Of a stretch of 64,000 nucleotides of DNA, positions 16,895-58,675 are shown piece after piece; position 1 is the stretch's first letter; each line of letters begins with the position of its first letter. The position numbers were made by a program, and so were the translations under genes. The DNA comes from Lineus longissimus. Its lineage: Eukaryota; Nemertea; Pilidiophora; Heteronemertea; Lineidae. The stretch covers positions 1,116,001-1,180,000 of the forward strand of contig NC_088312.1 of the NCBI RefSeq assembly GCF_910592395.1, written 5' to 3'. The notes beneath the pieces are model-generated. The model had not been told where the DNA came from. It searched no databases and worked only from the letters and a program-made list of their open reading frames with translations.

Positions 16895-17371
16895 TCAGTC
16901 AGGGGCTATCCTTTGTTTAGCATTTTTGTTCCGTTTTCTGTCAGGTCGCTTCAGCGCCGGGTACGTTGGTTTAGGCGTGGAATAGTTCTCTGATTCACTT
17001 GTTTTAGTCAGTAACTCATCCTCCTCTTCCTCCTTTTCTAACGGCGCCTCGGCAGCAGCCGCCGATAACTTCTGCGCAACTAAACCGTCCATGGATTTGG
17101 AGAAAGCAGAAAACTGACTCTTGATGCCATCGAGATCGTCCCCGGCCTGCTTCGGACTCGGTGCACTATCCTCATCCACTTCCTTTATTTCGTCAAACGT
17201 GATTGGTTGCGTCCTGTAACGTTGGCCAATCCGAGCAGCCATCTTCTTCTGTCGTCTGCTTGGCGCTGGGAAATCCTGATTTACATACAACCGCGAGAGA
17301 CGCTCCGGGAAGTGAGTGTCAAAGTGATAGAGGGGGTCTCTCACAGGATGATGGTGGGGATCGACCGCCAT
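16895..17371 (-). CDS. Single-exon 158-aa protein, family not recognised
   Basis: The ORF starts at ATG in AAGATGGCGG context, with an in-frame TGA 36 bases upstream, so this is its first ATG. The N-terminal part (residues about 5-65) is rich in His, Arg, Pro and aromatics ([36 protein letters not shown]) and reads like a conserved short-linear-motif protein. Residues about 80-110 could form one amphipathic helix. An acidic EEEEDEL run follows, and the end is basic ([12 protein letters not shown]). No signal peptide or membrane segment is seen. The biased composition and good start context suggest a real gene, possibly an intrinsically disordered nuclear or ciliary protein, but that role is a guess. 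A spliced 5' UTR is possible. Confidence 0.65.
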
Positions 17372-22362: not shown

Positions 22363-22792
22363 CTTTGATTGCCGCAAAAGCCTCAGTAAAAGCACGCCCA
22401 GTTAGCCTTTGGTCAAGGGGATATGAATGCCGTTCAGGTTCAGGAAAAGCCCCTGTAAAGACACGCCCAGTTAGCCTTTGATAATGGTGATATGAATGCC
22501 GTTCAGGTTCAGGAAAAACCCAAGTAAAAGCACGCCCAGTTAGCCTTTGATCATGGCGTTGTGAATGCCGTTCAGGTCGGAAAAGCCCCTGTAAAGACAC
22601 GCCCAGTTAGCCTTTGATCATGGCGTTGTGAATGCCGTTCAGGTCGGAAAAGCCCCTGTAAAGATACGCCCAGTTTGCCTTTGATCATGGCGTTGTGAAT
22701 GCTGCTCATGTTCAGGAAAACCCCTGTAAGGACACGCCCAGTTTGCCTTTGGTCGTGATGTTGTGAATGCCGTTCAGGTCGGAAAAGCCCTG
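22363..22792. repeat. Minisatellite, six units of 67-69 bp
   Basis: The word CACGCCCA (or TACGCCCA) recurs at 22393, 22462, 22531, 22598, 22665 and 22733, so units are 69, 69, 67, 67 and 68 bp. Units share AGTTAGCCTTTG and GAATGCCGTTCAGGT. The minus-strand ORFs here read a 23-residue repeated peptide only while the unit is 69 bp and break when it becomes 67 bp, which argues against coding. Confidence 0.9.
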
Positions 22793-25661: not shown

Positions 25662-25927
25662 TTGGATCCAGCCAACAACTCGAAAGCTCGGTGCCAAATC
25701 TTCCATGAAGAAAGCAACTTTCTCTCCAGCACATCCAGCAGTAGTAATCTACTGCTGGTAGATCTTATGGCATAACTTTACTTTTCAAGGGAGCTTGGAT
25801 CCAGCCAACAACTCGAAAGCTCGGTGCCAAATCTTCCATGAAGAAAGCAACTTTCTCTCCAGCACATGCAGCAGTAGTAATCTACTGCTGGTAGATCTTA
25901 TGGCATAACTTTACTTTTCAAGGGAGC
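25662..25927. repeat. Two near-identical 133-bp tandem copies, each with a hairpin
   Basis: The copies at 25662-25794 and 25795-25927 differ at only about one base by eye, so the duplication is recent. Each carries a perfect inverted repeat, CAGCAGTAG then a TAAT loop then CTACTGCTG (25736-25757 and 25869-25890). Confidence 0.9.
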
Positions 25928-28900
25928 TTGCTTATTGAACTTGCCTTAATTTGAGTGAACACTTGATCAGACCGCAGGAACTACCTGCTTTCCCAAATGC
26001 CAGGTAGAACAGTACGTCATTGCTTTTGCATGACTCACTGATCTGATGTATACGTTAACCATTTAAGTTCGAAAGACAGCTATTCCTCAGAGACTAGTTC
26101 CATACCAGCACAACCATCATTACACTTTGAAGACATAACGCGTCAGTACAGAATCCCTACCAAATTTCCTATCTTACCAGCCTTATAAACTCTAAACATG
26201 AAGAAACTATAATCTCATCAACCACAATATTCGCCTCTTTCTGCCAAAGGCACGAGCCAGACTACCAAATCTGGACCTTAAAAGCTTTTACAAAGCAGAA
26301 TTGATGAGATAATTCTTCCGGTACACGGCCGTTTATTTCACTTAATGAGCGTTGTCTGATGAGCGATTAACCTAGAGAAGCAGCTGGTGTCTGGTTGACC
26401 AGTTTGGCTTTCAAGGTTGGGACAAGGCTTTGGGCATTGCTAGCTAGATATAACATTTGTGTCGTCTATGTCATGCGACACAAGCCAAGTATGACAAGAC
26501 ACGATCAAGACATGATGAGATCTGATGACACTACCCAGCTATCGGCTACCTCGAACTTAGACAATGTGTGAATTTGAGTTAATCGGACATCGCCTATACA
26601 TGCTTCCCGAAATTGGTGGCTTGCATTTGAACTAACTTTTTCCCCCTTGTCCGTCATCAAAGGCATTCAAGTGTGTTGGTCAACCATGACTATTTCCTTT
26701 GTCCCTCCACCATAAGGCCTAGTTTCCCCTTTTGACATCACTATTTCGGACACTCAGCGCCCCATTTCTGGAAAGGTGTATATGTATGCCCAAGTAGTAG
26801 TTGGAACGTTACCATACTGTTCATTGCGTGCAACTTCTCTATCAAAACAAACCAATACAAACCCATCTATGAACACATTAAAGCAGAGCAACCGAAGGAA
26901 TCGCTTGCATTCCAAGTGCTTGCGTCAACATGCTATAACTGAAAACAAAACCAGGTGATCTACTTTACCCGACCAGTGTTAGCAAATTGCTATATGTATT
27001 ATTAGACTTGATGAACATAACTTAAGGACCATTCGATGGTATTCGTCTGTGGCCGCCAATGAAATACAATCATGTTTTTTGGTCCATTTGCTCTATTTCA
27101 ATGTGAATGTAAACTCGGTGCAATGTATTCCCCTTAAATGATATAACACAATAGGACCGACTGGAGAAAAAAGAGGATTCACAGATTCCTTAGATGTGAA
27201 CAGTGTTGGTAAAGAGTCAAGGTTTGACATTTTAGAGGCAACCATGATGGCGTATCCCTGTTTTTGTACGCTTACCGTTACTGACGTTACAAAGCTACAT
27301 GTAAAGGTGAATGCTATGAGTTTCCTTTGCACGCAGATGACGTGTGACCTTGCCCTGGAAACCAGGCACTGAAGATATGCTAGGTATTCATATCATCTTC
27401 ACCGTGGACAAACTAGATGTACATTTTGTTACATGGAATTTACCATGGTAGTAAAAAATACAATGCATACTAGCATGTACATTACACGGTAGAATACTTA
27501 GCTCAAAGCTAGAGTGGTGCGATAATGTGTAACGGGTTTCTGCCGATGGTTTACGGCGAAGATGAATACGTGCCGATGCACTTCTGAGTTCTCTATGCAA
27601 ACATCCTTCAGAGATTTCGTTGCTGTGTAGCCAATCCGAAGCTGCCAGCCCATTACTTCGCCGAATCTGCAAGCGTGAAGGCTTCTGGTAGCAAATGTTG
27701 ATAGAGGAAATTCTAAAAATCCAGCCCGAGGAATACGTAGCTCAAAAGTCAGACTCGTCATCAACACACACTCCGGACACATTGGACCGCTCGTGCTGTC
27801 GCATAAGGCGATCCAGTTAGGATGACGCAATGGACTGCCCCTGGAGTCTACATCAACATGGCTAAGCTAATTTCGTAGACTACGCTCAATTTGAATGGCA
27901 TTTATTTTTGTATCAAATCTACCATCCAGCACCGGCCTAAACAAACAAGATTCTCTTTGATGTACTGTAGAGAAACATGTATTCCAACATCATATCCTTA
28001 GGGAATGTTTTACTCCAGCATTCCGTGGATCTGGGGCGGCAATGGTTAACCAACAAAGCAGCTGGATGCTCACACAAGTAGGCTACTTGCGCATACCCTA
28101 GGTTATCAGGAATATGTAAGACAGATTTGCTGGCTCTTTCTCGAGTTACGGCAAACATTTGAAGCCATGCCAATGTTATCTCCGCAAATGCAGGTTTACC
28201 TTAGATGTATGCATCCGGACCTAAGTTGTGAAAGCTTCGTTTTGAAAGAAGCTATTTTGGCAGCCATCTTGTGTCGTCCACATGAAGTCATTGTATATGC
28301 TTATCATCCGCAGGGACCGAGGGTAGTTTACTGCGGCGACGACCGCAGCGTGAAGACGCCAGAGTTGAATCACGCCTTATGTGAGGCGTCAGAGTTTACT
28401 CCGTCAAATCGGTTCCGCAAACACACTGACAATGATTTCCACTCAACTACTCGACTCGGCTACTTTTTGGGAATAAAGAAAAACTGATTATTTCACCGTG
28501 CATGCAGATGGGCACCATCTTCTTCTGTTAGGATGGCCATTTGTTATCCATTCTTTTCTGCCTTAGATTCATTATACATACATTTCAGGGATTCTGAAAA
28601 AACAGAGTTTTCCTGACACTCTCCACTTAATGTTTGCTGAATTGTCTAAAGTTACATTGAACACGACAAGACATGCATTGCCTAATGGACAAATCTCATC
28701 ACTTGTGCTCGAGCGCTTGTAGAGTTTTCTTCGAGAGCACTTGCAGGGGTAATTCAATACTTTCCGCTTAACATGTACGAACATCGCTAAGCCTTTCATA
28801 AATTTACAAAAAAGAAGTGGAAAGATGCCCGATTTATGAGGATGTTCTGGGTATATGTACCAACGTTTTAGGAACGAGCCACATCCCTCCTTGCCTGTAG

Positions 28901-30150: not shown

Positions 30151-30785
30151 TCATTACAATGACAGGTGGTCCTTCCCAAAACAAGAACTCCGTGCTTCAG
30201 TGTCCACGTGTTGATCTCCTTGGTGAACCAAGAACAGATCAACCAGCGATCAAAAACCTGGTGACGCCTCAAAGCTTTCATGTTCACGCGATACAAGATA
30301 ATGAAGAAAAAAGAGGGGAAAAAATTGGCAGATTCAACGGGGGTCGAACTCGTGACCAGCCGACCCACGCGGGTCTAACACTCTAAGCGCGGTACCGTCA
30401 TGGCTTTCATGCTCACGTGGGGATTTATTTGCCTGATATCAACGAGCCAGGTGATGCATGACTAGATGACATCCCTCTAATACCATTCACGTTGTCGCCA
30501 TATTGAAAACGCGCCACAATTGTGATTAGTTCGCGCAGGTGGCAGAGTGATTGACCGAAATAGTTCCAAGTTATCTTATATTTCGATAGCTGTACATATT
30601 TTTCTCAATATATCGTATCTATATACCTCAGTGATATAAAAGATAATACTTGCAGTTGATTTCACGTTTGAAGGGTCCTTTTGAAAAAGTTTTTAGAATC
30701 GAGGTCAACAGGGTCAAAAGAAATAGTTTTTGGCGCCAATATAATGTCAGCAACATGGCGGATTTGTTCTAAAGTTCGAGTAGAT
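30150..30785 (-). mobile_element. Diverged copy of the 5' repeat family with SINE head
   Basis: A tRNA-like segment on the minus strand (about 30331-30410, B-box region around 30341-30350) is followed by sequence matching 600-900 in order: CGCCATATTGAAAACGCGCC, AATAGTTCCAAG, TCAGTGATATAA, GAGGTCAACAGGGTCAAAAG and TTGGCGCCAAT. It is the third copy of the family in the window, clearly older than the two at the 5' end. Confidence 0.8.
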
Positions 30786-36430: not shown

Positions 36431-36720
36431 TTAAGTGGTAACCACGATAGCTGAGCAAATACTTTGCAAATTGAGTTTTTTGCTTGCAGTGCAAACATTG
36501 GATAACAGCAGGGAATAGAGGATAGCCTTTTTGTCGTCAGATCGTAGCGAGTGGTGGATTCGCGTTTCATTGCAGAGGACGTTTTGTCGTTGAAATTTGC
36601 AATAGGAAGCCACATGTCCCTTCCAGGAGCATTTAAAGCATGTTAGACTATCTCCCATCATAACGTGTGCATCATTCAGTGCTGCAACTTGTGACATTGA
36701 CAGGCTGTTTCCTCGAGGCA
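36431..36720 (-). pseudogene. Zinc-knuckle (CCHC) relic, probably from a retroelement
   Basis: A minus-strand reading of 88 codons contains C-F-K-C-x4-H-x4-C (plus-strand bases 36599-36640), the exact C-x2-C-x4-H-x4-C spacing of a nucleocapsid-type zinc knuckle, with hydrophobic and Gly residues in the usual places. No capsid, protease or polymerase could be read in frame around it, so it looks like a decayed Gag fragment or, less likely, an exon of an unseen gene. Confidence 0.4.
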
Positions 36721-39312
36721 GTAGATCAGAGAGAGCAGGGGAACAGTCATAGCACCTCTACATCATCGCACTACATGGTATTGAGGAAGCGAGTGATTTG
36801 TGATCAAACGGTCTTAAGGAACTTTGGTTCGACATAGTATTTCATCTGACGTTCACACCCTGTATTTATTTTACGGTTTTCTGTTAAGGAAATTGGAATA
36901 CATAGCTTCACTACTGCAGGTAGATGAATTCGTTGTCAGCAGCAACCAAAAAATCAATCAGTTAAGCTGACTCAGCAAAAATAGTGCAGATTCTTAAGAC
37001 ATTCGTAAGAGGAAATACAACGAAACAAGTTGTAATCTTTTATGGATGATGTCTTTCTTCACGCATCTTGAGGGCTGTGTAAATATCGCATGAACACACG
37101 TTTACGATTTTCTGCAAGGATGGCAGAGAATGCATATTTCATGAGATTGTGAATGAAAGAAAGACCTTTTCTCTGGTACATTAACTTTATGTCGTGTGGT
37201 GATAGATTTGCCCATTTCTTTGTGTTGCTACTGAATATCAACGGATCGGGATTGCAACAGAAGTCCTGGGTTTCAGTTTTTGCTTGATACGTTTCTTTGA
37301 AGTTTGCCATTGCAATCCATACCTATGAACAGTTCACGCATTCCATGTGTAATTGTGGTTAGCAAGAGGAATTGACTTATGGCTAATTGATATTGCAAAC
37401 TTTGAAAAAGGACGTGCTCGGAATTCGAGGTCTGTTTGCTGATGTTGTGTCTGCATGAGAGGAACAGCAACCTGCGGGCTAATGCTTGCCTGTACGGATA
37501 ACTTCATTACCGCGGGAATGTAACAAGACTCACTAATAGGCTTATCTGCCAATTTTCAGAGAATTCACATCGCAGTGTTTGATAAAGTGGAAGAACTGCA
37601 TTGCGATACCTCAGTGTTCTTTCAACGGTGAGATCGGTCTGGTTACAAAAAGTGAAGTGAATTGAGCATTTCCTGTGAAAATCTTCAGGTATAAACTTCA
37701 TACTGGTAAGACGACTTTCAAGTTTGCTTTAGGATTTCCCATCGTCTGTGGATGTTTCACCAGCCTTATAATTGGCAGAACGTCTGTCCTTCAATTCCTT
37801 GATAAATCGTCGGAATCAAACAGTTTTGAAGACATTTTGAAGGATAAAATTTAAGGCTTTCGACAAAATTCATCACTTTTGAATAACACGATACGAAACG
37901 CTTGAAACTATAGCAAGTTCGTGAACCTGGACGTCATTCGCGAGCTTGTTCATGGACAAGATAACGTGTTATATTGCAGAGCCTTTTATACTTGGGAAAG
38001 GAATTTTCACGAAGTGTAAACCTTTGGAAATATAGCAATCTTCTTTCGGAAGGAATTCACAAGGTGTTTTTCTAATAGTTCCCTACGATCGCCTCATCTG
38101 AGACCAAACTCCCCCAGAGGACAGCTCTCCCTGTGGATCAGTGTGCGTCAATCATATTGCATTTAGCCGGTGACTCCCATTTCTATGGTAACCATCGGGA
38201 AAACCTATCTTTGATCGGGAACTAATTAAGACTGGCGGCTCATTCACTCTTGCTGTTCTATTCTTGCAGTTGTCAGCCAGCATAGCCCGAGGATTATATC
38301 CTCGGAGAAGATCGGCTTGTGCTGTGGTGACATTTCAGAACATATCAATTAATTAGGACTTGCAGCACATTGTCGTCTTGTACTGTGATTCTCTCTCCAG
38401 GATCGTCGTTGAAGTACTGCTCTTCTTCCTATTTTATGTTGATGACGTTGCGACGATCGACGCCGTATAACAATTAATTAAGACAAAAGGCACTTCACTT
38501 GCGTCAGCCCACTATATTCAAGTGAAGCCTGATGGTAATCGGAGCTATATCGTTGGATAGGAGAGCAACCATCTGTTGGTACTGTCAGAACATTAACCAC
38601 ACTTAACCAGCGTGTTCGTTGTGTGGACTTGTGTACTGTTTTGGCTAATTGACAACTCTGCTCCGCTGGGAAGCGTCTAATTACATTTCGAGACACACGG
38701 CAATGATATGGTAGTATTACGCTCATTTTAGAACAACATACGAGAGAATATCGGATGACAGGCACGGATATTACTAGTATACGACCTAGTGTTTGCTTTT
38801 CTGTTCGAGTGCGTAGAGTGATAGTCGTAATAATTACTCTTTTCATGCTAACGTCTAATAACTGTGGATATTGGACGGATTTAACGCATCCCTCTTATGG
38901 TGCGTATGACTCGATTTGATGTGACCCCTGGAAGTATCTCGGGAAGTGACTGACACTTGAAACGCTATGAGCAGTCGCCATTAACAACACAAGCTAAGAA
39001 CTTTCGATTCACATTTGCTCATCTCTGTTCACGCTATGTAGGGTTAGACGCTTTTGATTGCACTAACTATTCACCTTTTCTTGATCACAATGAAAGGCAC
39101 TTGTAAAATGACTGAGTCTTAAAACGAAATGACTAACAAACGGAAACAAGTTTGAGTGCATTCCTAGACACTCATCGCCTAAGTTTAAAAATCTCTTCCT
39201 ACAGACGCAAGCCGTGCCGACTCCTTCACTAATTGGACGTCGCAAAAGGAACAGCTTGTTTTTTATATTCATTTTATAATTTTTCTTTTTTCTCGTTTGA
39301 TTACTCATTTCG
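36721..39312. other. 5' flank of the Gag-fusion gene, no other gene supported
   Basis: Several overlapping short minus-strand ORFs (37059-37701, 38478-38846) show no domain. This should hold the promoter and 5' UTR of the long plus-strand ORF that follows. The 70 bases before its ATG are very T-rich. I see no long terminal repeat by eye. Confidence 0.4.
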
Positions 39313-42300
39313 ATGGATAAAGCAGAAGAGCAAAAGAAAACCAAAAAGCTAAGAAAGAAAGTCTCTTTTGCTGAAGTGGATATCATACACGGCAGTGACT
39401 CTGACGATTCAAACGAACTCTCCGAACAGAGTTATCGAATTGATGACCACAGAGAAGAGGTTTCAACTGACACTTGTGATTCTGATTCAGATGAAATTAC
39501 GGATTATGGTATCACGGCATGCTCGTCTGACAGCTATGACAATATTTTAGTTGAAGCCGATTCAGATTCGGAGTCGGAGTCAGATTCTGGAGTCATGGAT
39601 ACCCCCGAACCAACGAATAACAACGGCTCGTCCGTCTGTGAGGGCGAACAGCCGACAGTTGAACCTGGTGTTTCCTCCGAAGAGGTGGACAATGCAAATG
39701 TCATCGCAACGTCTAGCACACCAGATACGTCTAACACTGTTGACATGTCTGCTTCGGATCTTTGGAATAAAAATGACTTTTGTATTGATGACAACTCCTC
39801 AGTTGAGAAAGGAACTGATGATGCTAATCAAATCAGTTCTGCTTCGGATATGGAAACGTCTTATGAGAGCTCAGCACGGGGTGAAGTCAGTGCCATGGAA
39901 ATAAGCTTTGTTTCTGAAACTACAGAACTTGCCAGTGAGCAGACGATTGAAGTCGCATCGCATGTGACGTCCTCCGAAACGGATGCCGTTGCTGTTTATG
40001 TGGATGAAAATAAGACGGATGAGCCTAAAGCAGTATGTTCTGATAGTGACGTCAGTGGAACGGAACCTTGCCCTGAGGATACTGTAACATTGGATGATAG
40101 TGCTTTGTTAGAGGACAATGTTGCATTGGGATTAGTGGCAGATGAGCCAGCCTATGAAAGTAACAATGCTGATGGTGTAGATGTCGATACGGCCAATGAT
40201 TTAGTGGATGACTCTAATGACAATGTCAGCGAAAGCCAGATCGATGGTAATAAAGACACTACTGACACTGTTACTGGTGATTCTCCTATTGTGGAGAGTG
40301 ATGCACTCGTAGTGACACCAGTAGCTACTGGTTGTGGTGATGACATTGACAGCATGAGTCCGACTCCCGATGAAAACGATGTCAACGAAACCAGTGACGT
40401 GCCAATGGATAATGGGCAGGTCAATCATCATGTATCAGAGAGTGAGGTATTAGCTCCACCGCTCGAAAGAGTCTCTCCAGCGAACGATGACATCGCTGTC
40501 AATGGGCCCGTTGAGGTTGGTGATGACATTGACAATGCTCCTTTATTCGATACTACCAGCAACGAAATCAATGAGGCACCAGTTAATGAAACTAACGATG
40601 TCGATGGGTTCGCTGACGATGCGACAAATACAACTGAACTCCAGGAGCATGTCGTAGCTTTAGATTCTGATGGTGTAGATTCTGACTTGAATGGTGATGA
40701 CAGTGCGACACACGTAGTTGGTACATGCACTGAAGCGCCCGCCGAGGGCAGTGTGCTGGGCGTGGCACCATGCTCACAGGTAGCAAATGATGCAGATGTT
40801 GAAAAAAGCGAATCTATTGATCAGAGCCTGGTGGAGGAGAAAGAGGGTATCGATTCAGACGACGATTTAATGAAAGAAACCATTACCGCTGTTAATGTGG
40901 CGCCAATTGAAAATATTGACGAGTCTAATGACTTTGGTACGGCTAATACTGAGATTGAATCTTGCGGGGATGAGCAGAGCGTGACACCTAAGGAAATGGT
41001 TGATGGTAGTGAATTCCAGGCTGTTGGGGTTTTAACTGAAACGAACGTCACCGGGGAAAGCAGTGGCCAAGGAATTGACGATGCACCTGACACAAAATAC
41101 ACACACGAAACCCAACCTAACTTTGCAACAGATACCACAGATATGGTAATTGAGACAGAGGATTTAATGCCAGCTGATAATACTGAACAAGTTGAAATAA
41201 GTGCTGAACTCGAGGCAACACATGTTGAACTTGTTGAGAGTGATGATGCTTTTGATAATGTAAATGTCGTGGAGGAGACTAACGTTATGGCGGCTGTGGA
41301 TGACGACCACAAGGTTGAGGTAGAACAGAAAATCGTAACTAATCAAACTATTGAATCTAGCGTTGGGCAAGACTATGTTGAAACTACAACTGTCGTGACA
41401 ACTGAAATGCGAACCACAGTTGTGAAGATAGAACCAGCCATGTCTGGTGGCTCGAACGTTGCTTTAGACAGCGGAAAGGTAAACAACAATGTTCCAATAA
41501 ATGAAACTGACAGCGTGGCTGATGCTACAAAATCGGATTCAGAGCTTGAGGTAGCCAAGGAAGAATCCAAAGTGGCTTCTTGCGATGAAACTGATCCGGT
41601 TGGTGTTAATACCGAAAGTATGTCTGCGCCCGCAGGTGAATCCAGCATTTGTGGAACTGGCGAGCAGTTTGCAACTGATATTGTACCCGTAGTTAGTAAT
41701 GCTGATGTAGTAGTTATTGATGTTGGCGAGCCTGCAGTAGAACATAAAGGCCTCGGTGATCAACCTGCATTGGAAGAACCGACCACAGTTGACGACACTG
41801 CAGCACAGGAAGTGGTTGATGACGTAGCCGAAAGCCTGTTGTCTTCTAAACTTGTTACATCAGATACAGCAGTTTGTGGAACTGACGGTAACACAGGGGA
41901 CGAAATTGCCGAATTGGTTGATTCTGATGATCAGTTAACAGCAGATCTAGAGATACCCGTTACTAGGGAGAAAGAGGAATTGCAACTAGCAGGTGGTATG
42001 ATCGAAACTGTCTCCACTGATGACGTAGACGTGGAAACAAATGATGCTGTTGCCTCTGATAGCCAAGTAATAGAGGATAAACTTATGTCGGAAATAAACG
42101 ACGAGAGTGAGGAACTTGACACTGTCCCTGATGATACGTCAGTCGATAATTCCCAAGAAGGTGGGGATAACCTTGCAATCAAACAAGGTGACAATAGTAA
42201 AGTTGAACTTGCAACAACTGTTCGAGATAATGGGTCCAGTGTAGGTTTGGATTTAAATGTATATATTGAGCAAGAATCAAATGCTAAAGATGCTGTGGAT

Positions 42301-44601
42301 GAACGCAAGGCTACTGAGGACATGGTCCGAGATCAAGAAGATTTAGAAACGGATCGTGATGAGAATCGTCAACTTGGTGGCAGTAAAGAACTCGAAAACA
42401 AAGTGGATATTTCTGATATTTCAAATGTTGAATCGGATGATGTTATTAACTGTGCGGTCATAAATCGTGAAGCATCGATTCTGTCGAAGGATGGTGAAGT
42501 GAATCTGAGTGATAAGAATGATGAAAAGGATTTTAACGAGGAAATTGGTACATCTGTAGAAATGGATACAAGCTTATCAGTAGTTTGTCACGAAACGGAT
42601 ACTGCTTCTCATGTGGAGATGGAGGATGAAATCTTGTCAGACGCTGGTGCCAATGAATCGATTGTAATGCTAGGTGAGAAGGATTACGTGCCAGGAATAG
42701 CTGTGGAAGATCCGAGTCGAGTTTCTGATGTCCCTGACAATGAGGATATGTCATATCAAGGAGAAAATGGGGAGAAAATAGTGGTGGATAAACAGGACAC
42801 TTGGGTAAAGAATGCTACTGCGGAGAAGCTTGAGGAGAGTGTTTCAGTTTCTGAGATCATAACGGTCTCATCTGAAGAGACAGTGCAGACATTGCCATCT
42901 CAAGAGGCCATGGGAGTACATGATTCTGAGCCACTGGTGTTGACAGATACTACCCCCGATGAATCTGATTTTGTAGTAGACACTGGAGTGGTCTGTGTGC
43001 CAAACAAGGACGAAAGCGGGGATGGTCGTTCATCAGCAAATGCTACGATTGGAATCTTATCAACTGAAGATACGAATCTTGATGAAGAGGAAGTGGTAGA
43101 GCCGTCATCTGGACTGACACCAACAAACGAACTGTCTGAGGCCAGTAAGGACACACAAGTCTGGCACGGCAACCCCATAAATGGTCCAGGACCATGTCAT
43201 TCAAGCCTGGCCAGCAGTTCGGACAAGTATACTGTAATTGACCATGGAGAAGTTATTCATGAGGGTGGGTCGGAAGGAGAGGAGTCCACAGATATTTGCT
43301 ACGGAACTGGCACAGGGACGTCGACCAAGTCAAGGTTCCAAGACACGAGCGCGGTTCTGTTCGCTCAGGCTTCGAGTGCGTACGAATATTCAATCTGTCC
43401 TACGAAGATACCAGACGATGAAGATACCGTCTGCTCTGATAACACGCCAAAGGAGGAAACTGTTATTTTTCCGTCGTCAGAACCACCTGTTGTTGTTGAG
43501 GATGTCATCCAGCAGGAACATGCCCCAAGAGAAGAGGAAATCCCTAACTTTGTAGCAGTTGTTGATAACAGTGACATAGGGCAAAGTCATGCTGAAATTT
43601 CTCGTAGTGAACCGATAAGGATTGCAACTGGCAAAGCCCCTGATAATAAGGTTGATGAACTTCATAAGCTTACCATTGAAATAACACGTAGTGCTGAACT
43701 AGAGCCTGGAGCTAGCAAACTATTTGACAGTTCTCCTCTGTCAGAACTAGAGGACGAGGATCTTGAACTTTTAGAAAGGGCGTCTAATCGGGCATCCTTT
43801 GTCGGATCCCTTGATGACCTGAGCCCCATTGATGAGGTCCTTACCAACGCTTCTGGGACCCTTATCTCGTCAAATAAGGATGTCACTAATGGTGAAAGCA
43901 AGGTTGATGACTACCCCGACGTGGATCTGTCGGAATCCGTTGGTTTGGAATACTTCACTGGTGGCTCGTCTTGGAGTGAATATTTCCAACATTTTGAAGC
44001 GTTCTGTCGGGCAAAGAAATGGAATAAGCAGGTGAAGGGATCTTACTTGTTCGCCCACCTTAAGGGCAGGGCAAAGCAAGTGGCATGCAAACTGCCTGCC
44101 GAGAATCAGCGCGACTTCGATCATTTGGTCGCAACTCTTGGAAGATTCTTTACTGCACGCGATGAAGCTGAGTTGTACTTGTTCGAGTTGAGGAATCGTG
44201 TTCGGAAGCCTGAGGAAAGGTTGCGAGATTTGGGCAGCGACGTCCAAAGATTAACCGACCTGGCCTACCCAGAGATACCAGTGAACCAGCGCAAACCCTT
44301 AGCGAGAATTCATTTTATGGATGCGTTGAAAGACAGTGGAATGTTGAAGCATATTTATCAGGGCAGGCCAGATACGTTGGAGGATGCTGTCAAACTTGCA
44401 ATTGAGTACGAAGGATTCAGAAGAGTTACGGAAACCAGCGAGGTTGCAAAACCTCGACCGAAGTCGATTGAGGAGGTTGTAAACGGAGGAGATAGATCAG
44501 AAATGGAGAAGCGCCTTGCAGAGCTTGCTAAAAGTATTGGAGAAATAAAGTCGACGCTAGGGAATGCGGATAAGTCATCAGCTGCTCGAGATATTTCGTG
44601 A
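39313..44601 (+). CDS. 1762-aa acidic protein with C-terminal Ty3/gypsy-type Gag capsid domain
   Basis: One uninterrupted exon; an in-frame TGA 15 bases upstream makes this the first ATG. Residues 8-16 are Lys-rich and lead into KVSF (16-19), which fits the RVxF docking motif for protein phosphatase 1, followed by an acidic DSDDS run. Residues about 23-1540 are low-complexity, dominated by Asp, Glu, Ser, Thr, Val and Asn, with very few aromatics, so probably disordered and strongly acidic. From about 1545 to 1705 a folded domain reads as a Gag capsid of Ty3/gypsy elements: LEYFTGG, WSEYFQHFEAF, a LKGRAKQVA helix, FELRNRVRKPEERL, LTDLAYPEIP, then FMDAL and LEDAVKLAIEYEGF. A short coiled-coil-like tail follows. 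No CCHC knuckle, protease or reverse transcriptase follows. I infer a domesticated gag gene; a degenerate or non-autonomous element remains possible. Confidence 0.85.
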   Translation: MDKAEEQKKTKKLRKKVSFAEVDIIHGSDSDDSNELSEQSYRIDDHREEVSTDTCDSDSDEITDYGITACSSDSYDNILVEADSDSESESDSGVMDTPEPTNNNGSSVCEGEQPTVEPGVSSEEVDNANVIATSSTPDTSNTVDMSASDLWNKNDFCIDDNSSVEKGTDDANQISSASDMETSYESSARGEVSAMEISFVSETTELASEQTIEVASHVTSSETDAVAVYVDENKTDEPKAVCSDSDVSGTEPCPEDTVTLDDSALLEDNVALGLVADEPAYESNNADGVDVDTANDLVDDSNDNVSESQIDGNKDTTDTVTGDSPIVESDALVVTPVATGCGDDIDSMSPTPDENDVNETSDVPMDNGQVNHHVSESEVLAPPLERVSPANDDIAVNGPVEVGDDIDNAPLFDTTSNEINEAPVNETNDVDGFADDATNTTELQEHVVALDSDGVDSDLNGDDSATHVVGTCTEAPAEGSVLGVAPCSQVANDADVEKSESIDQSLVEEKEGIDSDDDLMKETITAVNVAPIENIDESNDFGTANTEIESCGDEQSVTPKEMVDGSEFQAVGVLTETNVTGESSGQGIDDAPDTKYTHETQPNFATDTTDMVIETEDLMPADNTEQVEISAELEATHVELVESDDAFDNVNVVEETNVMAAVDDDHKVEVEQKIVTNQTIESSVGQDYVETTTVVTTEMRTTVVKIEPAMSGGSNVALDSGKVNNNVPINETDSVADATKSDSELEVAKEESKVASCDETDPVGVNTESMSAPAGESSICGTGEQFATDIVPVVSNADVVVIDVGEPAVEHKGLGDQPALEEPTTVDDTAAQEVVDDVAESLLSSKLVTSDTAVCGTDGNTGDEIAELVDSDDQLTADLEIPVTREKEELQLAGGMIETVSTDDVDVETNDAVASDSQVIEDKLMSEINDESEELDTVPDDTSVDNSQEGGDNLAIKQGDNSKVELATTVRDNGSSVGLDLNVYIEQESNAKDAVDERKATEDMVRDQEDLETDRDENRQLGGSKELENKVDISDISNVESDDVINCAVINREASILSKDGEVNLSDKNDEKDFNEEIGTSVEMDTSLSVVCHETDTASHVEMEDEILSDAGANESIVMLGEKDYVPGIAVEDPSRVSDVPDNEDMSYQGENGEKIVVDKQDTWVKNATAEKLEESVSVSEIITVSSEETVQTLPSQEAMGVHDSEPLVLTDTTPDESDFVVDTGVVCVPNKDESGDGRSSANATIGILSTEDTNLDEEEVVEPSSGLTPTNELSEASKDTQVWHGNPINGPGPCHSSLASSSDKYTVIDHGEVIHEGGSEGEESTDICYGTGTGTSTKSRFQDTSAVLFAQASSAYEYSICPTKIPDDEDTVCSDNTPKEETVIFPSSEPPVVVEDVIQQEHAPREEEIPNFVAVVDNSDIGQSHAEISRSEPIRIATGKAPDNKVDELHKLTIEITRSAELEPGASKLFDSSPLSELEDEDLELLERASNRASFVGSLDDLSPIDEVLTNASGTLISSNKDVTNGESKVDDYPDVDLSESVGLEYFTGGSSWSEYFQHFEAFCRAKKWNKQVKGSYLFAHLKGRAKQVACKLPAENQRDFDHLVATLGRFFTARDEAELYLFELRNRVRKPEERLRDLGSDVQRLTDLAYPEIPVNQRKPLARIHFMDALKDSGMLKHIYQGRPDTLEDAVKLAIEYEGFRRVTETSEVAKPRPKSIEEVVNGGDRSEMEKRLAELAKSIGEIKSTLGNADKSSAARDIS
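43945..44427 (+). other. Gag capsid-like domain (residues ~1545-1705)
   Basis: This segment of the long ORF carries the capsid-like fold region. The order of conserved blocks matches retrotransposon Gag proteins of the Ty3/gypsy type: an aromatic-rich start, the WxxYFxxFE helix, a helix ending in the LxGxA-type turn, an R-x-K-P-x-E-x-L block, the LAYP block, and a final LEDAVxLA helix. Its amino-acid make-up (many Arg, Lys, Leu, Phe, Tyr) is quite unlike the acidic part before it. Confidence 0.85.
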
Positions 44602-47600
44602 GCTGTGTGATAAATGGTGGAAGCAGTTGGACGATTTCAAATTTGGTGTTAACAAACACTGTTTACTCTATGTTTACCTGACACCAGAAGCACATTGGTA
44701 GCCTATTTGTATGTGTAGATATTTTCGGATTGGCCCGCCCCGTAATGTATACAACTGCATGAAAACAAATGCAGAATACATGTTCCCGCTGTTAATTTCC
44801 TCATACAATGTATTTGGTGTCATTAACAGTAGGAACTTTTTTCTGCCATAGAGTGAGACAAAGCAATTTTATCACAAAATCTACTGAGATGGTTTTTCTT
44901 CATGATCTGGCATTTCGATGTTGACTCTATTCATGCAATTTGGGGGTGGGACCATCGGTTTTTCTATCACTGTATTTCCCCTGCACCTTGCAATACATCA
45001 CTAAGCAATAACATATCATTGAGAAAACTTGACTTTGGTTAAGTGTGGTTTAAAGATAAACACAGATAGCTGATCAGGTCATGAAGAGTCGCTGTTGCAT
45101 TCATTAGTCTTGAACCTTTCTTCAGCCTAGATATTTTTTTTTGCATTTTGGTGTGATTGTTGGCTATGGGTTAAGGTTCTCCACTTCAATTGCTTTTAAA
45201 TGTGGCCACAGGCCGGGTTTTATCGCACGATTCTTGAGAGTATGTGATACTTTCTTCTGAAAATAGCGTAGTTGCAATAATGACATCGTTTTCTTTCAAT
45301 GTACATCAACAATGCTTTCATGGCGCAGTGATTTGGTCTCACAACGATGACTGTTATTAATGGTTTAAATGCAACCACGGACCCAACTTCTGATACTGAG
45401 TTTTTAGGCTGGCGATGCTACTAGCGAACAACATCTCATTTCAACGTAGTTTGATGTGTTTTAGAATAGAAACAGTTCCTGTTCTGTCGCATTATCAAAT
45501 CCGGCATGCAAATGTCGATGAAACCCATCGTGAATATTTTGCAGTGATATCGGTCATTGCTGTATTTTTATCGTCATAACAGTTGGTCTGTGACAGACAC
45601 AGTTACTTCTGAAGTCATATCTGTCAACCAATATCATGACTATTAGCCATGTCTGTAAATATCATTTGGTAACAGTGAGAACTTCTCATGACCGTTAATA
45701 ACATTTCGTAGTAAAAGTATAGGTTGGGAGTTATGTAGGCTTCGTGGTGAAACCATGGTTACCATGTCTTAGCATTTGGGAGGAAAACGATTGTAAATGT
45801 GCAAATGGGAGATTTGCGTGTTGCTGCCAAGCTTATTAGAGGCGTAGGACACGGGCATCAATATAACTGGATACTACGAATGCATAATTGACTTAAGAGC
45901 ATAGTCATATTTTTAATTACTAAGTACCATTAGCTTCAAATCGCAAGCCTAACTGCTTTTAGATTTAAAATGGTTGTGTTAGTGAGCGCATATTGTGATA
46001 CAATTTCTATGTGTCGAAACAATAACTGAAAGGCAGTATTTCAAATTCATTGCTATAATCAAACTTACTACAGAGGATTGCAATATCATGTTATTTATGA
46101 ATGTTTAGTTGTAGATAATGCATGTATACCGGTATGGAGTTTGAAATCGCTAGAAGGTCTTTCTTGTCACATCATATCAATCCGCATGCATAATAGAGAT
46201 GCGCTTATCAATTCATTTTTAAAACAATCACACACAAAATCCATGACATGCTATTTTAAATCCATTTTATATAGATTCATTATTCATAGACGGCAGGCCC
46301 GTCGCATGGCTCACAGAACGGAGTTCACACTTGAGACGGAGATAAACGGGGATGAGAATATTCTGGCTGCGCCTAACATCGGATTTTAGAGTTTCTCTCA
46401 AAATTTCCAAGACAAAACATTCAGTAGATGAATATTTCGTACAATTCACCGAGATTTCATATACTGTATGTCCCAACTTGCCATTCTCATCCCTGGAAAA
46501 AATCGGACCTGCACGAAGAAATGTTAAGAATTGTAAGTTAATTACAAGAGATTATCGAAAGACTGTGGAATTTGAACCTCGTCTTCTGTAGCAGGCGTGT
46601 ACTTGCTGTAGCATGAATACATGTTTAACCTGTTCAATTAGATGGTAAATTCGCTTTTGAAATCCAGTGTACGTGTTGCATTCAGAGCTTATTATCACGC
46701 TAGTATGTATAATGTGTACAAAACAGCCAAAACACAATGGTGTGGTGTGTTTTTCATGCTTTTTCAATTAAAAAGAGGTTTTCGATGATGATGGTGAGAT
46801 GTATCGCATTACAGGGTCATATCAATCATTTTTTGATATCTCCTTCGATACCGGTACTGATTCTTTGTTTAGACTCGATGGAGAATCGGCGCCTCCTGAC
46901 ACTGTAGATTCTGCTCTGAGTCGTATCCATAAACCTATGAGACATGATGGTCATTTCTGAGATGGATCAAACAGATACTCCCTACTGTTTGATCAGCTCT
47001 GCATGCCCGATGCCTCAGAACAGTTTCTACAGTGTGCAAGAAACAGCAATAAAGGATCATGTACATTACTTGGCACTCCTACTTGAGTAAAGGGCTTCCG
47101 TTCTCCTTTGAAACGTCAATTTCAAGTGCTGCTTTTACTGTATGATTATGTACCTTAGAAATATATCACGTTTTGAGTTCTTTTAGAGAAGCTTAAGTTT
47201 ACACCTTCAAGTACTGTGAGGAATAAGTTATTGATCTTTCCAAGTCAACTGAGCCTTCATATCACTCTTAAGCTGCACTTTCAAAGACGTCTAGTATGGG
47301 CATTAAAGAATATAGCTCAGCATTTCCCTGCCTGAGTGAAAGTTGACCCGGCAATCTCAGGCCCTGAAATGGGTTAGAAAGAAACCTTGCATCAGTTTAG
47401 TTTTGCGCATAAGTTCACTTCTCTTTCATTTGATATTATCAAGTTTAAAGCATTTTATTTGATATCATCAAGTTAGGAAAGAGAGTCACGGTGTCGTGTG
47501 GCTGTACTGCAATGTCTGCCATCGTGTTGCATGTTTTGAAATATCTCGCCATGGTGTCGAATCCAGAAAGAGGCACAGAGGGCCTGCGTTCCACCAAGAC

Positions 47601-47830
47601 ATTATTTGAAAAAGTCTTGGAAATTTGCCCAGGATTCCTCTAGGGTGTCGCTCTTTTTCCGACTACTGAATTCTCCCCTGCTAGAATATCATTCGAAAGA
47701 GCAAAGAACGCGATATGTAGGCCTAGTTAAATATTGGTGTTAGTGAATGGGACCTTTGTTTCTCGGTATGTCTTGGTGTTTCAAGCGAATGTGTTTTAAT
47801 GTTAAATAAAGTTTCATGGTCATCCACCTT
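44602..47830 (+). other. Probable 3' UTR of the Gag-fusion gene; no pol
   Basis: No ORF longer than about 105 codons and no reverse transcriptase, integrase or protease motif is visible on either strand. Candidate AATAAA signals occur at 47048-47053 and 47805-47810. Nothing else explains this stretch, so a UTR of up to 3.2 kb is the simplest reading, but transcript data would be needed to confirm it. Confidence 0.45.
47805..47810 (+). terminator. Polyadenylation signal AATAAA, possible end of the Gag-fusion transcript
   Basis: This AATAAA has G/T-rich sequence just after it. It lies 3.2 kb after the Gag-fusion stop codon; a second candidate is at 47048-47053. Confidence 0.45.
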
Positions 47831-47885
47831 GCGTTAGACTTCTTTTTCTCCGGTTGATCTACCTCATCTCGAACCTTCAGCCGAT

Positions 47886-48140
47886 AGAAGCTTGCTCGCA
47901 AGAGCACTGAGTTATGGCGGCATTAGCCCATAGAGGCTTGCTCGTAAGAGCAGTCATGGCGGCATTAGCCCATAAAAGCTTGCTCGCAGAGCAATCATGG
48001 AGGCATTAACCCACAGAAGCTTGCTCGCAAGAGCAGTCATTGAGGCAGAAGCCCATAAAAGCTTGCTCGCAAGAGCAGGCATGGAGGCAGTAGCCCATAA
48101 AAGCTTGCTCGCAAGAGCAGGCATGGAGGCATTGGCCAGT
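47886..48140. repeat. Minisatellite of six ~42-bp hairpin-forming units
   Basis: GCTTGCTCG starts units at 47890, 47936, 47978, 48019, 48061 and 48103 (46, 42, 41, 42 and 42 bp apart). Each unit contains CTTGCTCGCAAGAGCA, in which CTTGC pairs with GCAAG or TGCTC with GAGCA, so two alternative hairpins can form. The repeated minus-strand peptide (ASMPALASKLLW) is a product of the repeat and not a gene. Confidence 0.9.
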
Positions 48141-53800: not shown

Positions 53801-56800
53801 GAACAAGAACAGATCCTCCGGTTAATATGAGTATTCTGTCAGGGTATACTTATTCCAGCAGATCCGAACCAAGGCTGATGTATTTTGACCTAAGTATGTC
53901 TACTCTTGTTTCCTTTCCAGTGTGCTCTTGAGAAGTATTCTGAGACTCAAGATCCATCATTTTTGCTCAATACAATCCGCACTGTCTTCTCTTCATCAGA
54001 CTCACTCAACAATAGTTTTAAGGTAAGGTTTCAAAACAATCTTTATCAATTCCTGGATTGACGTAATTCAGAACTCAGAACCCCATGTTGTTGTTTCCAT
54101 GACCAGTTTAGCTAAAGCCTAAGATCAAACTGCAGCTGCCTATCATTGAGTTGCTTGAAAAATAAATGTTGGTGACTGTGCATTAATATACAAGGAATCT
54201 TTTAAAGGTGAAATCAGATTGGTTTTTGACCAGATTGTTCTAATTACTTGTGTCAATTGACATTTACAGAACGATGAATCCCTACCGATTTGTGCCAGGA
54301 ATATCGACTTGAAGGGCGTTCGACAGGCTTATGACCTCTTGATAAAACAGGTAGGTGGCTAGTGTTACATTGGAATGCCGATATGAACGAGTTTCCCCTG
54401 TACTCAGCTGCTGTCCATAACCACGAGTTTTTAGTGGCATCCAAGCTTGCTTTTGATTTGTCAATTAGGATATGATATGAAATATCTTCTTTTGAAACTT
54501 ATTTTTCTTCCTCTATTTCAGGACTCGTTGGTGCCCTGTCTGCGTAATTCAATAGAAATCCTCCTCTCTCATTTACCAAATGTTCAAATACAGCCACAGG
54601 AGGTGAACCAGCTTGCGATACTCCTCGAGTGCCCACTCTTCCGGAAGAGACGCAATCATGCTCTGAGGCAGAAACTGTGCGTTGTCCTGTCTGGTTTGCT
54701 GCCTGCCACCAAGGAAGCGTTCTGTGAGGTGATGATTATGTACGATGGTGATCTCTTTGAGAAACGTATGGGAATGCTGAAGGATCATTTGATGTTGTCA
54801 CTCAGGCATAATCAGAGGTGTGTAGTTGGTTTACTTTCCGGTGCAAAAAGTCATTGTCTGATCTAACCTTATGCTGCTTGATTGAATTGACCCCCACAAG
54901 ATCACATGATCACAGAGAATCACTGATATTGGGTGTTGGTATACTGAAACCGGGGTTTACTTATAACATAGCTGCGTAGCACTTGTTTGCCTGAAGGATT
55001 GAAATCATGTGTGTATATCACTAGACCCGTATCAAGGTCAGAGTATTATCTCTTATATTTTTCAGGTCTGAGCCTCCCATGATAGCTATGGCCGAGACAC
55101 TGTCCATATTCTATGAAGCTAATGCACTCCAGGAAAAAAAGACGGGTACTCCTATCATTCCATATCGAATGTTCTATGTTGGGGAGCTTGGCAGGTGAGG
55201 GAGGCTTGGTGCTTGAGCAGTTACTTTGAATGTTAGGAACCCATCATGGGTGATTCACTTATTGCAGCTACACTTGCTTGGTAGTGCCATGTGAGGAGCT
55301 TTGAGCAATGAAACCGCATTGGATTTAGCGCTTTGGAAATATCATTTTTATAGTAATAGTTATTTTGGTGATATTTGGTGTCGGTCATCTCTGGTCGGTT
55401 TTCAAACTTTCTTGCTTGTTAACATGGTACTAAATCATCACTTCGTCATGCAGGAAACTTGACTACAAGGCAGAATACGAGTGCTGGTGTAAAAGCCACC
55501 TTGACCCTGTCACGCCGACATCAAGTCAACCCCAGCACGAGACATCACTTCTACATTACTCATTCCTACTCGATCCTTCTTCCAAAGTTCACGCACTACA
55601 TCTAGACGCTGTCATTCAGATGAGACGGGTGTACCAGGAGGCCATTCTTCATCAAGCAGTAAGTGAAAGTTTTTCAGCTCAGTACATGAGGCAACTTGTC
55701 TTAAACTTTTAATCTTCACTGACCTGAATTATCATTGATGGTTTCCTTATCTTTGCAGAGGGTCAACCAGGTACAGAAATACCTGCGCGATTTCAGCCGG
55801 TGTCCACGCCTGCCAAATGCCGTCAAGTCAGCCATGTGTCCATATTTGGTGCTCGAGGTGCGGCGGGATCACCTCATCGATGACACGATATCTCAGATCA
55901 GACTGAAAGAAGTTGATCTCAAGAAGCCTCTCAAGATCAAGTATATTGGAGGTGGCGAGCAGGTAAATAATATGCATGACATTTTTCTTTTTCTTAACCC
56001 TTGTGCTTAAGGCCAAACTGATCCCATCCCCCCAGTTCCTGAAGTAAAATTTAGGTGTTCATGGCCAAACATCTGATGAAACAGATGCCGCCATTAGGCC
56101 TCCAAGTCGTTTACTACCAATAGTACAATCTGTTTGCAGGGTTTGGACATGGGCGGGCTCCAGAAGGAGTTCTTCCAGTTAGTCTGCACGGAGATCTTCG
56201 ATCAAGACTATGGCATGTTCATATATTCAGAAGAGACGAGGAATCTCTGGTTAAATGGTGCTTCATTCGACTCTGATGAAGAGTTTGAATTAGTAGGAAT
56301 ATTATTAGGTGAGTTTGGTGACCTAAATCAGATGTGATACTACAGTTTTGAAACCAAATTACTTGTGCCAACTCCAGCACTTCAAATGGACTTTGGTTTC
56401 TTGAGAAGTTTATGTTGACTTTAGCAATCAGAAATATCAGCCCTTGTTGCCTGCGACGTTGCTTGACTTTTCATTCATCTGTTGTACATTTCATATGCAT
56501 GTTGACATAGTCTTTAAGCTCTAGGTTGAAAGTCATTGATTGGCTAGTGATGCCAAATTTATTCTCGAAATCTTTTCTCAGGTTTAGCAATCTACAACGG
56601 CATCATCCTCGATATCCGGTTCCCGTTAGCGATCTACAAGCAGTTGCAAGAACAGGCACTCACTCTGAGTGACTTGAGTCAGGTTGAGCCTGTCATCTTC
56701 AGCAGCCTGGTCGAGCTGTTGGCCTTCGATGGTGATGTTGAGGACACATTTTGCCTTACATTCCAGGTAAGGTTGGATGATTATGCTGGCACTGGCATGG

Positions 56801-58675
56801 TTCCTTACCATTGGTGCTACATGTAACCTCCTACCACACTGCTGCATCACCTCTCCATTGAAACAATTGGGAATAAATACAACCAAAGATATGCTGGAAC
56901 GTCTGCTTTTGTTTTACTTGTAATCCCGTTGTTTTGGCCAGTTTAATACTTGAGACAAATCAACTTATTTACAATGTATTTCATATAATTCTTGACCATT
57001 TTCAGGCAACAACTCAATGGTACGGTGAAACCATAACTGTTGATCTCATTCCAAATGGTGCTGAAATCATGGTGACCAACGAAAATCGCCATTCTTACGT
57101 CGAGTCTTACATCAAGTACCTGCTTACTGAGAGTATAACCAAACAGTTTGCGGTGAGTGCAGTTTCTGTTGAGCAGTGCCACACAATCTAAATTGGCAGT
57201 ATAAAAGACAATCGTCTTCATGAAGTGGTTTTCATCTGTTTTGTTTGACAGACATCACAGAAGATGTTTGCTGTGATGTATATTCAAAACTGATTTGTTC
57301 CCGAGGTCAGACAACACAAATCAATGAGAAAAGTTCCAATCCATCCATATTTTAAACACCATTTTCTTTTCAGGCGTTCACGCGTGGATTCCACAAAGTC
57401 TGTGATAGCCATGTATTGTCCTTGTTTAGACCTGAAGAAATTGAATTACTTGTCTGTGGGAGCCCAGATTTCGTAAGTTTGTTTCTTTTTCTTAACACCT
57501 TCAGCGCCAAACCACGTAGCTCTACGTGGCCCGAATCCCCCTCCCCTTTGAGCTGGTTAACGGAGTCTCATGGACTTCATGAAAGAACTACGCCATCGCC
57601 ATCTTCAGGGCTAGAGAGGAACTGAAAAGACAAGAAAAGGTCCTTTCAGTTCCTGACTTACCCTGAAGATGGCGATGGCGTGGTTCCTTCACGAAGTCAT
57701 TTAAAGTTCTGAACTACGCCATCGCCATCTTCAGGGATGGCGTAGTTCCTTCACGAAGTCATTTAAAGTTCTAAACTACGCCATCGCCATCTTCAGGGAA
57801 CGGGAGGAACTGGAAAGACCGTTTAGTATTTTCAGTTCCTGCCTTGCCCTGAAGATGGTGATGGCGTAGTTCTTTCATGAAGTCCATGAGACTCCGATAA
57901 CCAGCTCAAATAGGGAGGATTTGGGCTACGCAGATCAACGTGGTGTTGAAATGTTATAGTGCTCTTTGGTTTCATAGTCTTTGTTAGTTCACTTTCATAG
58001 AGGTTGAACATTATGTGTGGTAGGACACACATTATTGTTGGCTGGTAAACAAGGTATCGTTAGGGCATATTTGTGTTTAAAATTTTCCTTCTTTTTTCCT
58101 TAGGACTTTGATGCTTTTGAGCGTTCAGCCTCGTATGACGATGGCTACCACAAAGACCATCGCGTGATCAAGTGGTTCTGGCTGACGGTTCATGATTACT
58201 CGCCGGAGCAGAAACGCCAGCTGCTGCACTTCATCACGGGCAGCGATCGGGTCCCGCTGAAGGGCCTGAGTCATCTTCCCATCATCATACAGCGAAATGG
58301 AGCAGATTCTGACAAGTACTAGTATTTACACATTGTTTGGGACAGATAATAGTTTGGGTCATGAAATGAGAGAAGTGTCAAGAGTTGACCAATGCAAGTG
58401 GTGTGTTGTGTTGCTACCTGATGACTAACTGTGAAGGTCAGATTAGCTTTGGCCTTACTCTGATCCTAGTCATGGCTGTTGACGATATGGGATGTAACAA
58501 CATTACTTGATGCCATCATGATGACTCACTCAAAAGCTCTTTCTTGTTCTGCAGATTACCAGCCGCTATGACGTGTTTCAACAGATTCCTGTTACCAGAG
58601 TACAGCTCTGAAAAGAAGGTTCGAGAGAAGATCACAATCGCCATCGAAAATGGGAAAGGTTTTGGACTGCAGTGA
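50824..58675 (+). CDS. AZUL-HECT E3 ubiquitin ligase of the UBE3A/HECTD2 group, 20 exons
   Basis: Exons: 50824-50836, 51262-51352, 51402-51551, 51687-51741, 52017-52073, 52355-52451, 52694-53213, 53469-53724, 53921-54022, 54270-54350, 54522-54817, 55066-55194, 55454-55658, 55759-55962, 56140-56308, 56582-56766, 57006-57152, 57374-57472, 58104-58315, 58555-58675. All are in phase, giving 1062 aa; only the 13-base first exon is uncertain. Residues 123-180 match the UBE3A AZUL zinc finger (YYYQLTEGCG, Cys 140, 145, 150 and 178 or 180). Residues about 712-1062 are a HECT domain (VRRDHLIDD, GLDMGGLQKEFF, LVGILLGLAIYN) with catalytic Cys1030 in TCFN, 32 residues from the end. It should accept ubiquitin from an E2 and pass it to substrates. 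LVCGSPD, LLHFITGSDRVP and the GFGLQ end favour HECTD2; YLVLEVRRDH, LFRPEEIELL and the AZUL favour UBE3A. Confidence 0.9.
57500..57950. mobile_element. Fold-back / MITE-like element in a HECT ligase intron
   Basis: The left arm (about 57503-57612) and right arm (about 57848-57948) are inverted copies: both read GAGCTGGTTAnCGGAGTCTC, then CATGAAnGAACTACGCC, then GCCATCTTCAGGGC on the appropriate strand. The middle holds further direct and inverted copies of the GCCATCGCCATCTTCAGGG word. The left tip has its own perfect hairpin, CCACGTAG-CT-CTACGTGG (57512-57529). It has no coding capacity, so it is a non-autonomous fold-back element. Confidence 0.8.

Follow-up and report, generated by a model that had tools for sequence, protein, structure and literature searches.

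A candidate domesticated gag gene joining a Ty3/gypsy-type capsid domain to a very long acidic region in the Lineus longissimus genome

Organization of the locus

The window analysed here is a stretch of 64,000 nucleotides from Lineus longissimus contig NC_088312.1, and its most prominent feature is a forward-strand open reading frame (ORF) of 1762 codons. The predicted product has a short basic N-terminus, an acidic region of some 1.5 kilo-residues, a Gag capsid domain and a short C-terminal tail, and the ORF is flanked by candidate untranslated regions. The features at and around the locus are as follows.

39313..44601, + strand: candidate gag-derived gene, intact ORF of 1762 aa (ORF scan; single DNA-level match in the genome)
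39205..39312, + strand: candidate 108-nt 5'UTR without ATG, following a candidate splice acceptor AG at 39203-39204 (consensus score only)
39355..39369, + strand: basic N-terminus with RVxF-like motif KKVSF, residues 15-19 (regex)
39379..43932, + strand: acidic, probably disordered region, residues 23-1540 (composition, net charge -304)
43945..44442, + strand: Ty3/gypsy-type Gag capsid domain, residues 1545-1710 (BLASTP, profiles, and trees with Gags of the same genome)
44443..44598, + strand: residues 1711-1762, a short C-terminal tail that stops ahead of the zinc knuckle position of related Gags
44602..47810, + strand: candidate 3'UTR with AATAAA at 47048 and 47805; protease or reverse transcriptase (RT) remnant not found
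628-917 and 30494-30785: 78% repeat pair lying wholly upstream of the ORF (self-comparison)

The stop-to-stop frame spans 39301-44601 (1766 codons), with an ATG at 39313 and no internal stops; the next longest open frame in the window is 180 codons. Elsewhere in the window stop triplets occur at 0.053 per position, and at that rate a frame this long has a chance of ~10^-42, before allowing for ~10^5 starts. A preliminary description of the locus had reported one intact exon of 1762 codons, and the coding part is indeed uninterrupted from 39313 to 44601, with an intron in the 5'UTR ending at 39204 as a possibility. The acceptor at 39204 is fair (its score is reached by 137 of the window's 3954 AGs, and four of these, in the 1.6 kb upstream, surpass it); the splice and AATAAA signals point, as suggestions only, to a host gene. 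A search against Rfam gave no match and a tRNA search found none.

The acidic region and the N-terminus

Residues 23-1540 contain 24.5% D+E and 4.5% K+R for a net charge of -304, in agreement with the acidic stretch of about these limits described previously; the net charge of residues 1541-1762 is +3. The acidic region is probably disordered, as judged from composition alone. A tandem-repeat origin was considered and rejected, with a top internal block score of 65 against a mean top score of 66 for 20 shuffles. The protein begins with the basic segment KKTKKLRKKVSF, which fits the RVxF motif by regular expression; KKVSF at residues 15-19 may be a docking site for phosphatase PP1 or a nuclear signal.

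A Ty3/gypsy-type capsid domain

The capsid domain is not recognized by general domain models. Four versions of the capsid piece searched against Pfam matched no family at E up to 10 (Retrotrans_gag and PNMA included), the full 1762-aa protein matched none at E up to 1, and searches of the NCBIfam and PDB sequences with the protein returned rows at chance level only. The ORF is likewise not among the 35 Retrotrans_gag places of the genome, and the local score of human Arc against the window protein is not significant, being reached by 254 of 5000 shuffles.

Relatives are found within the same genome (391 Mb, 30 contigs), where a set of Gags was assembled from 28 of the 35 Retrotrans_gag places (8 loci and pieces at 20 more places). 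BLASTP with the last 218 residues against the frames of these loci gives matches to L029 (E 1.8e-37, 35% identity), L027 (1.6e-35), L030, L025 and L026 (~5e-32 to 3e-30), L021 (2e-13) and L015 (5e-9), and all four of the own-genome Gags tested (L029, L030, L021 and L010) pass the Retrotrans_gag cut-off. A profile of eight own-genome Gags built without the window row matches window residues 1546-1703 at E 6e-35, and none of 500 tail-shuffled controls matches it at E up to 10; this profile search bears out the assignment to Ty3/gypsy Gag capsids that had been proposed from the letters of the DNA. When the window row is added, the profile matches dArc2 (2.5e-5), PNMA2 (4.3e-4), vertebrate Arc (9e-4) and dArc1 (1.3e-3) in the PDB, with nine of the ten matching rows being Arc, dArc or PNMA2 and the tenth a circular tendon repeat protein.

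The residues that characterize the domain are also retained. The comparison of Gags, with L027 omitted as a near duplicate of L029, gives 29 columns that are hydrophobic throughout (six or seven sequences having a residue at each). In the window capsid 28 of these are hydrophobic, against an overall hydrophobic share of 41%, and it also shares 11 of the 13 positions at which six or more of the seven Gags are identical. At the level of sequence, the homology of residues ~1545-1710 to Ty3/gypsy Gag capsids is proven by way of the own-genome Gags, not through Arc or Pfam directly.

Structure prediction contributes little to this assignment. Two single-sequence AlphaFold models are all helical and poor (mean pLDDT 46 and 55), and Foldseek and VIA-align searches with them gave only noise-level matches; in a check for the two-lobed fold, a match of the Arc CTD to these models ranks 13 (E 5.4) and is not counted as evidence. 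A long helix at residues ~1728-1759 is predicted at low confidence. Neither of two protein-based scans of viral contigs found a relative. Three loci picked out by a DNA pattern scan were set aside, their frames matching the capsid at E 1.6 at best.

Element parts not found at the locus

The preliminary description had noted that the capsid is followed by no zinc knuckle, protease or polymerase, and each of these points holds in the searches made. No CCHC zinc knuckle occurs anywhere in the ORF. The comparison is with L032, a longer piece of the genome around the L029 element. Its Gag, of 416 residues, includes a zinc knuckle and is followed by a reverse transcriptase frame (RVT_1 4.4e-25; Retrotrans_gag above its cut-off; zf-CCHC 20.1 bits against a cut-off of 20.8). 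The L032 Gag aligns to window residues 1548-1760 (34%, E 1e-32), the alignment stopping before the zinc knuckle.

A motif scan found no protease or RT in the 10 kb downstream (+ strand) and none within 1.5 kb of the capsid. A tblastn search with Gag and protease-RT pieces of L032, L030, L036, L021 and L010 found no trace besides the capsid itself; at E up to 1 a single further match came up, at 55447-55569 with a pol piece of L032, and its E of 0.57 is at chance level. RT-like hexamers occur at 37039, upstream of the ORF (FMDDVF, inside an 11-codon frame), and on the opposite strand at 43515, and HHCC-like regular-expression matches occur only at 2080 and 15057, far upstream.

Self-comparison of the 64 kb (BLASTN, E 1e-5, a threshold at which strongly diverged LTRs would escape) found no LTR-like pair flanking the ORF. 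The only repeats that flank it are short (~40-70 bases) and lie near 14.2 and 48.6 kb.

Copy number and relatives in the genome

Searched at the DNA level against the 391-Mb genome (very common words skipped), the whole ORF gave a single match, itself. A search with the capsid protein at E up to 10 gave at least 141 places (150 of 238 candidates scored), among which the window matches at 100% and the next best of those listed at 37% (E 1.6e-36). Many near-identical copies with LTRs and pol, which had been named beforehand as evidence against a domesticated gene, were looked for and not found.

The nearest relatives are the 29 loci L038-L066 from the capsid protein search, Ty3/gypsy elements (e.g. 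L032/L041) with capsids 30-39% identical to that of the window and, in L032, a similar tail. They differ from the window gene in being mostly multicopy, in having a zinc knuckle in the Gag frame (22 of 29) and in having a protease (PR) or RT motif in the locus (28 of 29, against 18 of 400 random window stretches and none at a window locus of equal size). Their Gag N-terminal regions, measured from the first methionine to the best-scoring capsid match and with some frames cut by the end of the locus, range from 0 to 496 residues or more with net charges of -8 to +2. Live elements of this genome thus reach ~500 residues, so that N-terminal length alone is no evidence of domestication; it is charge, not length, by which the N-terminal region of the window gene stands out from own-genome Gags.

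Three of these loci (L025, L026 and L030, the same as L058, L059 and L054) belong to one element family, in whose Gags a QLQSREQLAPQH-like repeat precedes the capsid in differing copy number, which demonstrates lengthening of gag N-terminal regions in live elements.

In a tree of the nearest relatives (36 rows, with profile matches below 100 positions dropped and one frame per locus) the end branch of the window capsid is 0.77, and 28 of the 29 relatives have end branches of 0.05 or less, the exception being L066 at 0.49. In a wider tree (29 rows, with ORFs whose profile match is below 110 positions dropped) the window branch is 1.06; among the other 27 Gag rows 15 are at or below 0.05 and 12 above it, four of them exceeding 1, so a solitary long branch is also seen for Gags that are possibly relics of elements. 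The same wider tree puts the window capsid in a 100/98 group to which Arc does not belong; the Arc branch has a length of 3.2. Capture of the window capsid independently of that of Arc, as the preliminary description proposed, is therefore likely from the grouping but, given the length of the Arc branch, not proven.

Origin of the gene

The best reading of the locus, to which we give a probability of about 0.6, is a host gene that arose from a captured Ty3/gypsy gag capsid joined to the acidic region. A domesticated gag is favoured because a homologous capsid occurs here as a single copy at the DNA level and in an intact frame, with no nucleocapsid, PR, RT or LTR pair found, and the test that we applied for such a gene (one DNA-level copy, an intact frame and no mobile parts detected) gives that outcome.

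The intact frame also bears on age. By count, 3.1% of random point changes in the ORF create a stop, and the probability that it would remain stop-free under neutrality is 0.19 at 1% divergence, 0.037 at 2% and 0.0003 at 5%; these values consider stops alone and are lower when indels are included at an assumed rate of 0.1 per substitution. Because stop-free survival is improbable at 2-5% divergence, an old unselected relic is unlikely on these sequence-based estimates, and a young unselected ORF is disfavoured because kin, LTRs or pol would be expected and none were found. The argument for selection is indirect, since some of the long branch may have accrued while the sequence was still an active element, and the possibility that this branch dates partly or wholly from such a life is a point against the host-gene reading.

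Two alternatives concern what kind of host gene this is, and each retains perhaps one chance in five. The main functional rival is that the domesticated gag serves as a restriction factor, its acidic-tailed capsid co-assembling with the Gags of live elements and spoiling their particles. Truncated or captured Gags act in this manner elsewhere (Fv1, Ty1 p22), potential targets are at hand in related families that are multicopy with near-zero end branches in the same genome, and the zinc knuckle needed for RNA packaging is absent; against this, a capsid identity of at most ~39% to any compared family seems low for co-assembly.

The second is that an older host gene for an acidic protein had its last part replaced by a gag capsid through exon capture, with the acidic part carrying the function. 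Nothing comparable to the acidic part occurs in the 29 nearest Gags, which have near-neutral N-terminal regions by the charges given above, and the acidic part shares one frame with the capsid. The acidic part is nevertheless found nowhere else in the genome by DNA search, and the well-kept capsid core (28 of 29 columns) suggests that the capsid itself matters.

Somewhat less probable than either, and the main rival as to identity, is that the ORF is not a host gene and instead encodes the Gag of an LTR element that is unusual or non-autonomous, or is an undecayed one-off insertion or fusion: its nearest relatives are transposons, some with long N-terminal regions, and other Gags too sit alone on long branches, but the window has no detected LTR pair in its 64 kb and no protease or RT trace, the ORF has no second copy by DNA search and no near capsid by protein search, and close kin, present for 28 of the 29 nearest Gags, would be expected of a fresh insertion.

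A possible function

Related capsids have their N-termini pointing outward, and RNA is bound in the interior by the C-terminal nucleocapsid. If the gene is a captured gag, its capsid domain may still self-associate to form a multimer or shell, on which the N-terminal acidic chains, with a charge of about -300 per subunit, would form an outer polyanionic brush. The assembly would be expected to be RNA-poor because the nucleocapsid is gone, and it would not package RNA, unlike the RNA carrier Arc. A brush-coated multimer of this kind could act as a multivalent scaffold for basic proteins, and the basic start could add nuclear targeting or docking of PP1. We infer the multimer, brush, phosphatase and nuclear steps alike. 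The complete proposal, in which an independent capture in an invertebrate has produced shells or multimers with ~300 negative charges per subunit, no RNA packaging and possibly PP1 recruited via KKVSF, is speculative and rather improbable as a whole; if true, a capsid that once carried RNA would have become a giant polyanionic scaffold.

Relation to known captured capsids

Host use of captured retrotransposon capsids has been studied most thoroughly in mammals and flies. Arc of vertebrates and dArc1 and dArc2 of Drosophila also derive from a captured Ty3/gypsy capsid, and these are the proteins matched by the profile that includes the window row. Arc differs in lacking a significant pairwise match and in its N-terminal part, a coiled coil of ~200 residues in the account of PMC11011659.

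Among the genes of eutherian mammals, RTL9 (SIRH10) is described as having a 1169-residue N-terminal region, predicted to be helix plus disorder, followed by CA (PMC11011659), and as conserved with dN/dS below 1 (PMC10573853). Like the window gene on the best reading, it is a domesticated metavirus capsid behind a very long N-terminal region; unlike it, RTL9 derives from sushi-ichi in mammals, and the passages on RTL9 in these two papers (PMC11011659, PMC10573853) report no charge of the order of -304. RTL5 (SIRH8), given as 599 aa with a pI of 4.39 (PMC9641642), resembles the window gene as a strongly acidic Gag-derived host protein, but its long acidic region is C-terminal and the protein is about one third as long.

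The window gene combines the long N-terminal region of the one with the acidity of the other on a larger scale and has a full-length capsid alignment. The earlier remark that no described gene of this architecture was known is accordingly weakened by what these sources give for RTL9 and RTL5 and by the long N-terminal regions of live elements: the architecture is the extreme of a known theme and not one without parallel. The open-licence literature, as searched here, yielded no description of an acidic region this large joined to a gag capsid.

The window gene looks like a new and independent case of the type of capture that gave mammals the Arc and RTL genes. If such a capture is clearly single-copy and shares its genome with multicopy kin, as would be so in this animal, captured and mobile forms would become comparable. 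It would also test whether a capsid can work once it has lost its RNA-binding part and bears a very long acidic chain.

Other features of the window and the genome

A HECT ubiquitin ligase exon (PF00632, E 1.9e-12) lies downstream of the ORF on the same strand at 56877-57188 (+). At the left of the window, frames at 3266-6516 (+) contain acidic stretches and, at 6205-6516, a match to the RNA-recognition motif (19.7 bits against a cut-off of 20.7); they resemble exons of a gene for an RNA-binding protein. Two reverse-strand frames are also present, one of 168 aa at 16895-17401 (-) whose DUF4695 match falls just short of the cut-off (26.1 bits against 27) and one of 108 aa at 36434-36757 (-) that contains the zinc-knuckle-like CFKCSWKGHVASYC and has no Pfam match.

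Repeats include a 95.6% direct pair at 1-575 and 939-1519, which encloses the segment 628-917 that recurs at 78% at 30494-30785, a 434-base self-pairing inverted repeat at 57511-57944 (78%) that is probably a foldback element, and tandem arrays at 22376-22790 (67 bases), 25662-25930 (133) and 47879-48137 (42), the last of which begins just past the candidate polyadenylation signal. Elsewhere in the genome, seven Gag-like matches fall within 0.53 Mb (C3:10416383-10947828), five of them, with frames of 253-320 aa, at 10.81-10.95 Mb; the cluster may be an element nest or a local family.
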